From the NCBI RefSeq assembly GCF_014466955.1, contig NZ_AP023396.1:3100001-3164000 (forward strand): a DNA stretch of 64,000 nt. The letters run 5' to 3'. The stretch's first letter is position 1. Each line of letters starts with the position of its first letter. Made by a program: the position numbers and the translations under genes. Positions 295 through 11,164 of this stretch are shown here, one piece after another. Under the pieces are notes generated by a model. It ran no database searches. It saw only the letters and a program-made list of their open reading frames with translations, and was not told where the DNA came from. The stretch is from Nocardia wallacei. GTDB lineage: Bacteria; Actinomycetota; Actinomycetes; Mycobacteriales; Mycobacteriaceae.

Positions 295-309
295 GAGAAC
301 CGTACTCTC
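295..309. promoter_or_regulatory. Inverted repeat, GAGART-N3-RTTYYC family (site 1)
   Basis: Read on the minus strand it is GAGAGT-ACG-GTTCTC. It lies about 105 bases upstream of the left-edge SDR. It fits the consensus drawn from the sites at 452-466, 9531-9545 and 11150-11164, so it is probably bound by the same repressor. The distance to the start codon is longer than at the other three sites. Confidence 0.5.
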
Positions 310-437
310 GTCGCGTTTGGGTCCGCAAGGGTCGCGCGCCGGGCCGCCCGGACGCAACGGCCTGCGCGCCGATGCCGAGATTTCGCGCAGGCCACCGGTT
401 TGTGGCGAGTTGTTACGCCCCCGGCCTATGAATGTTA

Positions 438-466
438 CATTCTCAGATATCGAGAATGAAGTTTCC
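438..466. promoter_or_regulatory. Composite operator before the aldehyde dehydrogenase operon (site 2)
   Basis: The site reads ATTCTC-N7-GAGAAT-N3-GTTTCC and ends 21 bases before the ATG of the aldehyde dehydrogenase. The inner ATTCTC/GAGAAT arms are perfect complements, flanked by C and G that also pair. The same composite layout (ATTCTC-N7-GAGAAT-N3-RTTTCC) recurs at 11137-11164, which suggests two overlapping dimer sites for one TetR- or GntR-like repressor. The rest of the 297-base gap between the two divergent genes shows no ORF I can support. Confidence 0.65.
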
Positions 467-487
467 ATAGATCGGCGAGGAGACGGG

Positions 488-1954
488 ATGTCAACGCAGG
501 AACAGGCGGTAGCGGTAGCGCGGCGGCTGCTGATCGATGGGCAGCTGGTCGAGACCGGCCGCACACTCGCCTCGCTCGATCCCGCGACGGGCGCGGTGTA
601 CGGGCACGCGCCCGAGGCGGGCGTGGCCGAGGTGGACGCGGCGGTCGCGGCGGCGCGGCGGGCCTTCGACACCACCGACTGGCCGACGAACCCGCAGTTC
701 CGGGCGCACTGCCTGCACCAGCTGTACCAGGCCCTGCGCGACAACGTCGAGGAACTGCGGGAACTGACCATCGCCGAGGTCGGCGCGACGCGCATGCTCA
801 CGCACGGCAACCAGCTCGAGACGCCGTTCGAGATCGTGCGCTACTACGCCGGATTGCTGGCGGACTACCCGTGGACCGAGGATCTCGGCGACGTGGAGAT
901 CCGCGGCCAGCGGCACCACCGCTGGGTGGAGAAGGAGGCGGCGGGCGTCGTGGCCGCCATCGCCGCCTACAACTACCCGCATCAGCTGGCGCTGGCCAAG
1001 CTCGCGCCGTCGCTGGCGGCCGGCTGCACCGTGGTGCTCAAGGGCGCGCCGGACACCCCGCTGGCCACCCTGGCGCTGGGCGAGATCATCGCGAACCACA
1101 CCGACATTCCCGCCGGCGTGGTGAACGTGCTGTCGGGCTCGGACATCGAGGTCGGCAAGCGGATGACCACGCACCCGGACGTCGATGTCGTCACCTTCAC
1201 CGGTTCCACACCGGTGGGCAGGCAGATCATGGCCGCCGCCAGCGCGACGCTGAAGAAGGTGTTCCTGGAACTGGGCGGCAAGTCGGCGATGATCCTGCTC
1301 GATGACGCCGACTACACCAAGGCCGCCCAGTTCGCGGCGTTCAGCATCGCCAGCCACGCGGGCCAGGGCTGCGCGCTGACGACCCGCGTCCTGGTGCCGC
1401 GGCAGGATCACGACAAGGTGGCCGAGATGATCGCCGCCACCCTCGGATACGTGACCTACGGCGATCCCAGCGATCCGAAGACCTATATGGGCCCGCTGAT
1501 CAGCGAGCGCCAGCGCGACAAGGTCGACGGCCTGGTGCAGCGCGCGGTCGCCGCGGGCGCCACCCTCGTCACCGGCGGCGAGAAGGTGGACCCGGGCTAC
1601 TTCTACAAGCCCACCCTGCTGTCGAATGTCGACCCGGACAGCGAGATCGCGCAGGAGGAGGTGTTCGGCCCGGTGCTGGCGCTGATCTCCTACACCGACG
1701 ACGACGACGCCGTGCGGATCGCCAACAACTCCATCTACGGCCTGTCCGGCGCGGTGTTCGGCGCCGACGCCGAACGCGCCAAGGCGGTGGCCCGGCGCAT
1801 CCGCACCGGCACGATGAGTGTCAACGGCGGCAACTACTTCCACCCGGACGCCCCCTTCGGCGGCTACAAGCAGTCGGGCATCGGCCGCGAGATGGGGCGG
1901 CTCGGGCTGGAGGAATTCCTGGAGCACAAGACGCTGGCGGAGGTGGTGTCGTGA
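488..1954 (+). CDS. NAD(P)-dependent aldehyde dehydrogenase
   Basis: An ALDH-superfamily enzyme of 488 residues that oxidises an aldehyde to the acid. The catalytic Cys295 sits in GQGCALTTR and the general-base Glu261 in LELGGKS. The cofactor-binding FTGSTPVGRQ segment and the C-terminal PFGGYKQSGIGRE motif are also present. The ATG is chosen because GGCGAGGAGACGGG precedes it; an upstream extension in the same frame crosses the operator and lacks family similarity. It heads an operon with a CoA transferase (GTGA overlap), a DUF35 fusion and a thiolase. This suggests that the acid made here is activated to a CoA thioester. It closely resembles the second ALDH at 20681-22147, which has the same length and the same catalytic positions. 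The substrate is unknown. Confidence 0.9.
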   Translation: MSTQEQAVAVARRLLIDGQLVETGRTLASLDPATGAVYGHAPEAGVAEVDAAVAAARRAFDTTDWPTNPQFRAHCLHQLYQALRDNVEELRELTIAEVGATRMLTHGNQLETPFEIVRYYAGLLADYPWTEDLGDVEIRGQRHHRWVEKEAAGVVAAIAAYNYPHQLALAKLAPSLAAGCTVVLKGAPDTPLATLALGEIIANHTDIPAGVVNVLSGSDIEVGKRMTTHPDVDVVTFTGSTPVGRQIMAAASATLKKVFLELGGKSAMILLDDADYTKAAQFAAFSIASHAGQGCALTTRVLVPRQDHDKVAEMIAATLGYVTYGDPSDPKTYMGPLISERQRDKVDGLVQRAVAAGATLVTGGEKVDPGYFYKPTLLSNVDPDSEIAQEEVFGPVLALISYTDDDDAVRIANNSIYGLSGAVFGADAERAKAVARRIRTGTMSVNGGNYFHPDAPFGGYKQSGIGREMGRLGLEEFLEHKTLAEVVS

Positions 1955-9530: not shown

Positions 9531-9545
9531 GAGAATGTTATTCTC
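9531..9545. promoter_or_regulatory. Operator GAGAAT-N3-ATTCTC (site 3)
   Basis: A perfect 6-base inverted repeat around GTT. It ends 22 bases before the amidohydrolase ATG on the minus strand, the same spacing (17-22 bases) as sites 2 and 4 to their genes. It lies one base after the stop of the upstream ligase, so the amidohydrolase-ligase pair has its own controlled promoter. Confidence 0.65.
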
Positions 9546-9546
9546 T

Positions 9547-11094
9547 TCATTGGTGAGCCGCAATGCCCTCGCGGCGCGCGGCCGCCAGGTCGCGGCGGAC
9601 CATGAACTTCTGGATCTTGCCGCTGGCGGTGCGCGGAAAATCCGCGACGACGTGCACTTCCTCCGGCCACTTCTGCTTGGCCGGACCGGCCGCGGCGAAG
9701 TGGGCGCGCAGCTCGTCCAGGGTGGGCGGGGTGCGCCCGGGGAGCAGGCGCAGCACCGCGGCCGTGCGCTCGCCCAGCCGGTCGTCCGGCACGGCCACCG
9801 CGATCGCCTCGGCGACGCCGGGCAGCGTCAGCAGCACCTCCTCGACCTCGAGCGCGCTGATGTTCTCGCCGCCGCGAATGATCATGTCGGATTTGCGATC
9901 GGTGATGGTCAGGTAGCCGTCCGCGTCGAGGACGCCGATATCGCCGGTGTGGTACCAGCCGTCGGCGTCGAAGGCGGCGGCGGTGAGGTCGGGATCGGTG
10001 TAGCCCAGGCAGAGATCCGGTCCGCGACTGAGGATTTCGCCGTCCGCGGCCAGCCGCACCTCGACCCCCGGCAGCGCCCGGCCGTCGGTGAACAGCCGCT
10101 TGTCCTCCGGTGCGGTGTGGTGCGAACCGGTGATCGAGGGATGCTCGGTGCTGCCGTAGGAGCGATAGACCACGATGCCCAGCCGCGACAGCCGGGTGGT
10201 CACCGCCGCCGGGACCGGCGCGCCGCCGAGCCCGGCGTAGCGCAGGTACGGCAGGTGCTCGGGGGTGTAGTCGGGATGGTCGAGCAGACTGGTCAGGTAG
10301 TACGGCACGCCGCCGCCGACGGTCAGCCGATGTGCGGTCATCAGTGCGAGGACCGCGGCCGGATCCCAGACGTCGACGAGGTTGATCGGTACCCGGTCCA
10401 GCACCGGGATCAGCAGCGCGTTGATCATGCCGATGAAGTGGCCGACCGGCGCCGCGGTGAGCTGGTCGCCGCGGTCGGCCGGGTACATCCCCGCCAGCTG
10501 CCGGGTCTCGTAGACCAGCGTGCGGTGAGTGTGCACCACGCCCTTCGGCGCGCGGGTGGTGCCGGAGGTGTAGGCGATCAGCGCGGGATCGGCTGGGGCG
10601 CAGCGCGTTACGCCCGGCATCGGCTCGGGGTCGAGCAGTTGCTCGAAGTCCCGCCCGACCACCGCGACCACCGGAACGCGGTCGCGCAGCTCGGCGCTGT
10701 CGGGCCGGTCGGTGGTCACGAAGACCTGCGGCCGTGCGGCGTCGAGGATGTAGGTGAGTTCCTTGTGCCCGTAGAAGTGCACGATCGGGACCACCACGGC
10801 GCCCAGGAACGCCGACGCCCAGAAGACCGCCGCGGCCTCCATCGAATTGGGCAGCTGGAAGGCGATGGTGTCGCCGGGCGCTACGCCGCGCCGGCGCAGT
10901 CCGGCGGCCAGCCGCCGGGCTACCCGCTCCACCTCGCCGAACGTGCCCGACCACGGCCGCGTCGCCGAGTGGATGCGGAATGCGGTGCCGGGCGCGGCGG
11001 CCAGGCCGGCCGCCAGCAGATCGCCGATCGTCTCGTCGGTCCACCAGCCCTCCGCCCGGTAGCGCCGGACGAGATCGAGGGGGATCGTGCGCAT
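9547..11094 (-). CDS. Acyl-CoA ligase (AMP-forming), second copy
   Basis: A 515-residue ANL ligase. The P-loop motif is YTSGTTRAPKGVV, followed by YRSYGSTEHPSITG, GWYHTGDIGVLD, the hinge ITDRKSDMIIRGGENI, and the catalytic Lys in TASGKIQKF. The start motif differs from short-chain ligases, and the protein resembles cyclohexanecarboxylate/2,3-dihydroxybenzoate-type ligases. It reads divergently from the crotonase gene and shares the composite operator at 11137-11164. It is likely to activate an acid entering the region-1 pathway. The substrate is unknown. Confidence 0.87.
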   Translation of the reverse strand: MRTIPLDLVRRYRAEGWWTDETIGDLLAAGLAAAPGTAFRIHSATRPWSGTFGEVERVARRLAAGLRRRGVAPGDTIAFQLPNSMEAAAVFWASAFLGAVVVPIVHFYGHKELTYILDAARPQVFVTTDRPDSAELRDRVPVVAVVGRDFEQLLDPEPMPGVTRCAPADPALIAYTSGTTRAPKGVVHTHRTLVYETRQLAGMYPADRGDQLTAAPVGHFIGMINALLIPVLDRVPINLVDVWDPAAVLALMTAHRLTVGGGVPYYLTSLLDHPDYTPEHLPYLRYAGLGGAPVPAAVTTRLSRLGIVVYRSYGSTEHPSITGSHHTAPEDKRLFTDGRALPGVEVRLAADGEILSRGPDLCLGYTDPDLTAAAFDADGWYHTGDIGVLDADGYLTITDRKSDMIIRGGENISALEVEEVLLTLPGVAEAIAVAVPDDRLGERTAAVLRLLPGRTPPTLDELRAHFAAAGPAKQKWPEEVHVVADFPRTASGKIQKFMVRRDLAAARREGIAAHQ

Positions 11095-11136
11095 CGTCGA
11101 ACTCCCGTCGGGCCAGGGACGTAACAGCCTTACGCT

Positions 11137-11164
11137 ATTCTCTCAGTAAGAGAATCACATTTCC
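11137..11164. promoter_or_regulatory. Composite operator between divergent ligase and crotonase (site 4)
   Basis: ATTCTC-N7-GAGAAT-N3-ATTTCC, the same arrangement as at 438-466. The inner repeat extends to 7-base perfect arms (ATTCTCT/AGAGAAT). It ends 17 bases before the crotonase ATG and lies 43 bases from the ligase start, so one bound dimer pair could control both directions. Confidence 0.65.

Follow-up and report, generated by a model that had tools for sequence, protein, structure and literature searches.

The closest described counterparts of the system reported here are the KstR and KstR2 cholesterol regulons of mycobacteria and rhodococci, with which it appears to have in common a TetR repressor, a palindromic operator near the repressor's own gene and a lipid-degradation regulon (PMC3068626, in part). 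KstR2 sites lie mostly 22-82 bp before starts (PMC3068626, in part). Rieske and cytochrome P450 genes are shared with a further system, the dit cluster for abietane resin acids of Pseudomonas abietaniphila and Paraburkholderia xenovorans; in excerpts of PMC10710418 and PMC13063091, dit clusters are described in Gram-negative bacteria only, and for one Rhodococcus an excerpt of PMC12294881 gives no high-identity matches to reference resin-acid enzymes. At the level of single enzymes, the dinuclear oxygenases PtmU3, AibH2 and SfbO, which have PF04909 in common, and the methylmalonyl-coenzyme A (CoA) and 2-hydroxyisobutyryl-CoA mutases with MeaB offer further points of comparison. Here we describe a 64-kb stretch of the 7.89-Mb genome of Nocardia wallacei (C1:3,100,001-3,164,000; hereafter the window), whose first 11 kb carry inverted repeats of the type GAGAATN3ATTCTC. 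This palindrome is very probably the operator of a TetR-family repressor with three paralogs, all encoded outside the window.

Catabolic regulons under TetR control are an established type of system, and the operator, regulator subfamily and gene core found here differ from those of KstR and KstR2. The operator is another one, the KstR model is not matched, the regulator has three paralogs, and the core contains Rieske, PF04909 and B12-mutase genes. Among the matches listed in the open-licence PMC literature, no description of the motif, the regulon or the regulator was found.

Operator sites in the window and across the genome

Exact matches to the consensus GAGARTN3RTTYYC occurred as five strand-hits at four places in the window, against a mean of 0.03 and a maximum of 1 in shuffled sequence. 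An earlier note, made from the window sequence by itself, had listed four inverted repeats of this consensus, three of them 17-22 bases before a start codon; all four were recovered, and so were the three spacings (Table 1). Its composite layout, ATTCTC-N7-GAGAAT-N3-RTTTCC, was exact at two places in the window and nowhere else in it, 439-466 and 11137-11164, the former starting at 439 and not at 438 as given in the note. With up to three mismatches, the composite had four window matches, compared with a shuffle mean of 0.01. When up to two mismatches were allowed in the consensus itself, 33 strand-hits were counted versus 20.2 ± 4.3 by shuffling; because this excess is small, weak window matches are mostly chance, and only near-perfect sites can be read.

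The genome-wide search that the note had proposed as a check returned few random matches: the consensus was found at 19 distinct places (31 strand-hits) and its reversed control at none. Since 18 of the 19 places fall within 189 kb (C1:2,922,054-3,111,164), an island that ends in the first 11 kb of the window, the window sites appear to form the right edge of a much larger regulon. A single operator for one catabolic regulon had been recognized correctly, whereas the 12 kb allotted to it were too narrow: the predicted regulon spans at least 18 sites over 189 kb, and the window holds its right end. When up to two mismatches were allowed, the perfect palindrome was matched at no fewer than 116 places, compared with 7 for the control; nothing was drawn from these, because the control pattern differs in composition.

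Gene surroundings of the sites were studied over 220 kb, of which 215 kb lie to the left of the window, with genes called by our own script. By these calls, 16 of the 18 island sites fell wholly between genes, and the other two shared 2 bases with the end of a TetR gene; from each site, the distance to the closest start downstream was 15-369 bp. The sole consensus site off the island (C1:799,192-799,206; L001:1501-1515) precedes a gene on the opposite strand, which by eye is dinucleotide-binding reductase-like and resembles g029.

Conservation of the window promoters

Promoters were compared in 20 of the 34 other genomes of the same genus that encode a relative of g201 (118 searched). Upstream of g199, an aldehyde dehydrogenase (ALDH) gene, the exact proximal site was present in 17 of 19 orthologous loci, 17-39 bp before the start, and the other two differed by one mismatch. 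A counterpart of the distal site (295-309) was found in 18 of these loci, the exception being a locus (L178) in which the contig ends shortly upstream. All 11 loci with a g205 ortholog and upstream DNA carried a perfect palindrome at 22 or 28 bp, and the 12 motif columns of the 9531-9545 site were invariant across the 11 orthologs and our own sequence. For g207, four of six orthologs had the exact 15-bp site at 15-17 bp, and the others had one and two mismatches.

Mean majority in the g199 alignment was 0.935 for motif columns versus 0.600 for the rest of the upstream 230 bp. The corresponding values were 1.000 versus 0.747 for g205 and 0.929 versus 0.773 for g207, the upstream 230 bp being partly neighbouring coding sequence in both of these alignments. 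The window sites are thus kept in orthologous promoters, a comparison which the earlier note had also proposed.

A TetR family accompanies the palindrome

The likely regulators are two TetR paralogs, g030 (C1:2,922,067-2,922,720) and g133 (C1:3,029,858-3,030,511), located about 178 and 70 kb left of the window; the earlier note was right that no matching regulator is in the window, whose own TetR, g211, has another palindrome clustered around it. Sites flank each of the two genes, one upstream (at 122 bp for g030 and 121 bp for g133) and a second at the 3' end. The third paralog, g070 (C1:2,959,430-2,960,092; L021:14430-15092), has the same DNA-binding region. g133 carries the TetR_N domain (PF00440; 31 bits versus a cut-off of 24), and residues 50-66 of the DNA-binding domain were invariant save one column in an alignment of 38 proteins made up of the three paralogs and 35 from a set of 80 named loci. 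These 80 loci, the best 80 of 133, with some genomes contributing several, span Nocardia, Rhodococcus, mycobacteria, Aldersonia, Actinomadura and a few metagenome bins. The best PDB matches of g133 by sequence were TetR proteins; fatty-acid regulators and KstR2 were among the 45 matches, and as EthR and TtgR also appeared, the matches give weak support for a CoA ligand.

A perfect palindrome was present within 250 bp upstream of the TetR gene in 67 of the 80 loci, mostly at 111-134 bp, and 10 of the other 13 had a 10-11/12 match upstream of it. Among TetR-bearing loci from other families, 9 of 10 had a consensus site upstream of the TetR gene, and over both groups the site stands about 91-134 bp before most TetR genes. 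Nearly all consensus matches in the 80 loci (224 of 228) had a gene start within 300 bp.

Co-occurrence was assessed in two sets of genomes. In the family set (151 genomes), 33 genomes encoded a close TetR ortholog, and 32 of these had the palindrome, versus 9 of the 118 others (P = 1.8e-23); the close-ortholog cut of E ≤ 1e-88 was chosen after the list had been seen, and the next best TetR stood at 1e-27. The class set (394 genomes) had the perfect palindrome in 45 of 45 genomes with the TetR (E ≤ 1e-50) versus 22 of 349 without (P = 7e-43), and the reversed control pattern had one match in each of four genomes. Of the 45 TetR-positive class genomes, 19 are outside the family of N. wallacei and 24 belong to one genus. 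The predicted link between the TetR and the palindrome is thus a comparative one.

Tandem arrangement of sites

The 20 aligned rows of the g199 promoter showed no variation in the upstream ATTCTC half, in the GAGAAT half or in the gap of seven between them. The segment 430-444 is accordingly numbered in Table 1 as a predicted second, weaker operator, its centre 22 bp from that of the main site. The same spacing was visible in the flank composition of 95 non-redundant sites. In a flank test on 100 non-redundant perfect sites (180 before thinning), which overlap the 95 and are not independent of them, the match to the palindrome peaked at an offset of 22 bp, with 4.86/12 versus a mean of 2.85 (standard deviation 0.43) for offsets 16-60. 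Ribosome-binding sites do not explain this peak, because flanks that have no gene start inside 80 bp gave a higher value (5.39/12) than those with a start within 40 bp (4.75); the reading of the neighbouring half-site as a mere ribosome-binding site was rejected on this ground. The best 22-bp neighbour among the 12 perfect sites of our own island scored 8/12. Pairs at this distance would most naturally be read as two adjacent repressor dimers that occupy the same face of the helix.

Linkage of window genes to the regulon core

In two genomes of another family (L196 and L198), window genes adjoin core regulon genes. A run of about 34 kb in genome G356 contains relatives of the TetR, g061, g062, g134, g136, g137, g033, g034, g128-g126, g028, g125 and g124-g121, and continues with g204, g205, a g206/g079-type ligase, g207, g200, g199 and a second g205-like gene. 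Three consensus sites lie in this run, of which one, located 22 bp before g205, is perfect; some genes of the run have no homolog in the Nocardia island. In a third family (L193), a composite-type site was found 24 bp before an operon holding ALDH and CoA-transferase genes.

The genes headed by a site in the island, some of them named by eye, include the TetRs and, for import, an mce operon (at 369 bp) and a branched-chain-type ATP-binding cassette (ABC) transporter whose binding protein matches Peripla_BP_6. Also headed by sites are paired acyl-CoA dehydrogenases, a Rieske oxygenase operon, a thiolase together with MeaB, an enzyme of the acrylyl-CoA-reductase family, molybdenum-hydroxylase-like genes and two PF04909 proteins, as well as the window operons. 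The commonest neighbours of the TetR at more than 50% identity were g134, g136, g132, g129, g061, g131, g130, g137, g034 and g033, found in 49 to 39 of the 80 loci each. A small gene beside the Rieske oxygenase, g138 (L025:9412-9759; 116 residues), matched no Pfam family at E ≤ 1e-4, yet 35 of the 80 loci have a relative of it close to the TetR.

Exceptions and alternative explanations

Several observations count against a single TetR family acting through this operator. The paralog g070 has no exact site beside it; three of the 80 loci (L069, L110 and L126) lack a good site upstream of the TetR gene, L110 having only 208 bp of upstream sequence; the TetR of L194 has no consensus site upstream; and G098 encodes the TetR and has no perfect palindrome. 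Conversely, the site was present in the 9 and 22 TetR-negative genomes of the two sets. Fisher values overstate independence, because genomes share descent and the two sets have 11 TetR-positive genomes in common. In G356, a consensus site is lacking for the ALDH, the CoA-transferase and the second g205-like gene, and just 18% of flanks score at least 8/12 at 22 bp, so that the tandem effect is modest. Finally, many genes within the 189 kb carry no site, and the island therefore need not be all one regulon.

If a different transcription factor bound GAGAATN3ATTCTC, the TetR genes would merely be among its targets, and sites do precede the MarR-like g060 (at 61 bp) and the TetR-like g037 (at 259 bp), both named by eye. 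We regard this as improbable: neither gene is among the 60 commonest TetR neighbours listed, whereas the g030/g133-type TetR is accompanied by the palindrome in every class-set genome that encodes it, including those outside its own family, with the site at a recurrent distance before most of its genes.

A KstR or KstR2 steroid regulon, which the gene types recall (paired acyl-CoA dehydrogenases, a ChsH2-type OB fold with a thiolase, a FadD3-family ligase and an mce operon), is very unlikely. The KstR2 motif, AnCAAGnnCTTGnT (PMC3068626, in part), is unlike GAGAATN3ATTCTC; none of the NCBIfam families, among them the KstR model, was matched by g133 at E ≤ 1e-15, and the PDB match of g133 to KstR2 was weak (E 0.0012). 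This candidate was rejected, as neither operator nor family model fits.

Slightly less credible again is a small local regulon of the window TetR, g211, to which the window sites would belong; g211 is the nearest TetR, and the P450 gene in its neighbourhood has a degenerate GAGAAT site upstream. The GAGAAT sites, however, span 189 kb and track g030/g133 orthologs, and another palindrome, GTAACN3GTTAC, has three of its six genome copies around g208-g211 and is kept before g209 in two other loci (L172 and L173); g211 is disfavoured as regulator of the GAGAAT sites, since it is this other palindrome that clusters around it. Chance palindromes or RNA hairpins can practically be dismissed, for although two-mismatch matches in the window are near chance level, exact sites numbered 19 versus 0 in the reversed control and are conserved in orthologous promoters, no terminator-like site was found in window 200-600 or 9450-11250, and no Rfam match in window 1-20000.

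The three copies of GTAACN3GTTAC in the window lie at 12031-12043, 13050-13062 and 15412-15424, with imperfect copies near 16140-16175, and cluster around the P450 (g209), short-chain dehydrogenase/reductase (SDR; g210) and TetR (g211) genes; the copy kept in L172 and L173 is 41-42 bp before g209. This palindrome may be the operator of g211.

Oxygenases, mutase and candidate substrate

The families of several island and window genes bear on what the pathway might degrade. g051, which has a site 77 bp upstream, showed full-length similarity to PDB entry 8UYR (E 5.8e-137) and then to PtmU3. Its likeness to the dit system rests on the depositors' name DitZ for 8UYR and not on dit cluster sequence; a search of the resin-acid paper PMC13063091 gave no hit for DitZ. 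When g205 was aligned to PtmU3, the metal-ligand motifs were kept, His and Glu positions included. Both g205 and g051 retain the dinuclear ligand motifs D-x-H and DxxHx[DE] of PF04909, which read DNH and DWPHPE in g205 and DDH and DYPHSD in g051. The reported mark of dinuclear members in PF04909 is an acidic residue two positions after the last His (PMC7782822 and PMC10811679, in part), and a small Rieske redox-partner gene nearby is a feature of amidohydrolase-related dinuclear oxygenases (PMC10811679, in part). g205 is thus a candidate oxygenase of this class. PtmU3 is a beta-hydroxylase of diterpenoid biosynthesis that acts on CoA-linked substrates (PMC7782822, in part); its biosynthetic role differs from the catabolic setting of g205 and g051.

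The product of g121 scored 666.4 bits with TIGR00641 (cut-off 303.8) and fell below the cut-off of the full methylmalonyl-CoA mutase model NF006944. It aligned over its length with 4R3U and methylmalonyl-CoA mutases, and g131 passed the MeaB cut-off. Tyr and Arg occupy two aligned positions of g121 that we take to read the substrate, as they do in methylmalonyl-CoA mutase but not in 4R3U.

The acyl-CoA pathway that the earlier note had read from the window genes is plausible. Taken together, the oxygenase likenesses, g121, the mce and ABC importers, the paired dehydrogenases and the FadD3-family ligase point, tentatively, to a branched or polycyclic alicyclic, terpenoid-like acid as substrate, a proposal drawn from protein families.

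Features of the window

Predicted operators and genes of the window are listed in Table 1. The degenerate site at 13027-13041 has a counterpart in each of the two loci checked, with 10/12 matches at 63 bp in L172 and 11/12 at 62 bp in L173.

Table 1. Predicted operators and genes in the window (window coordinates; genes from our own calling)
Feature	Position	Strand	Description
Predicted operator GAGAGTACGGTTCTC	295-309	-	Between divergent SDR (g198) and ALDH (g199) genes, 104 bp upstream of g198; exact consensus match
Predicted weak tandem operator GAATGTTACATTCTC	430-444	+	2 mismatches; centre 22 bp from centre of 452-466
Predicted operator GAGAATGAAGTTTCC	452-466	+	Exact match; ends 21 bp before ALDH start
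Predicted perfect palindromic operator	9531-9545	both	Exact match; ends 22 bp before g205 (amidohydrolase)
Predicted composite operator ATTCTC-N7-GAGAAT-N3-ATTTCC	11137-11164	+	Between divergent g206 and g207
Exact consensus site within composite operator	11150-11164	+	Ends 17 bp before crotonase g207
Predicted degenerate operator GAGAACGGTATTCCC	13027-13041	+	1 mismatch; 63 bp before P450 gene g209; possible fifth window site
g198, SDR (start of gene)	1-190	-	First of leftward run g198-g192 leaving the window
g199, aldehyde dehydrogenase	488-1954	+	PF00171; TIGR04284-like, below cut-off
g200, class III CoA-transferase	1951-3159	+	PF02515
g201, with C-terminal ChsH2-type OB fold (DUF35)	3180-4355	+	PF01796 at residues 307-368
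g202, thiolase-family protein	4447-5604	+	PF00108, PF22691; PRK06064 below cut-off
g204, FadD3-family acyl-CoA ligase	6894-8315	-	NF005801, 751.9 bits versus cut-off 657
g205, candidate amidohydrolase-related dinuclear oxygenase	8312-9508	-	PF04909
g206, acyl-CoA ligase	9547-11094	-	PF00501, PF13193
g207, enoyl-CoA hydratase (crotonase)	11182-11898	+	PF00378
g211, TetR	15448-16134	-	

For g201, no PDB relative was found by sequence at E ≤ 0.01; a suspected HMG-CoA-synthase-like N-terminus did not appear in Pfam or PDB searches and is not claimed. The gene at 5681-6883, by eye a probable membrane protein, is site-free; in L172 and L173 the orthologs of its neighbours have no such gene between them, and it looks like a local insertion. 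The ALDH-thiolase stretch, searched at the nucleotide level against plasmids, gave 17 records, the best being a Mycobacterium branderi plasmid at 22% coverage, and the plasmid neighbours of PF04909 and Rieske homologs indicated no substrate. Farther to the right, at 42477-47108, are two adjacent large genes that by eye are SulP-type transporter-like.

Discussion

Our comparisons suggest that a large breakdown pathway in Nocardia and related soil bacteria is probably under the control of one repressor family. In the mechanism we propose, a TetR-family repressor would sit on GAGAATN3ATTCTC a short distance from start codons; some promoters would probably take a pair of adjacent dimers with a spacing of 22 bp. 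Occupation of at least 18 sites, spread along 189 kb, would keep the regulon shut until the repressor is released, probably by a CoA-thioester intermediate of the pathway. A lipophilic acid would be imported by Mce and branched-chain-type ABC transporters, activated by CoA ligases and oxidized by Rieske, P450 and amidohydrolase-fold oxygenases and paired acyl-CoA dehydrogenases. Cleavage by the OB-fold/thiolase and thiolase enzymes would follow, and the product would then be rearranged by the B12 mutase.

Somewhat more speculative than the nature of the substrate is the possibility that these genes make up an undescribed actinobacterial pathway, present across several families, for terpenoid-like acids that resist beta-oxidation. 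Its dinuclear oxygenases might hydroxylate the CoA thioester beside the blocked carbon, the OB-fold/thiolase enzyme might break the C-C bond and the B12 mutase rearrange the product, with one TetR family acting on tandem operators two helical turns apart.

For Nocardia, Rhodococcus, mycobacteria and other actinobacterial families, the analysis provides a concrete candidate regulator, an operator and a gene list for a large catabolic regulon. A formerly vague gene cluster becomes directly testable, in that the operator can serve as a reporter for inducers and the conserved core points to the enzymes. If the oxygenase reading is true, a catabolic role would be added for a little-known class of metal oxygenases.

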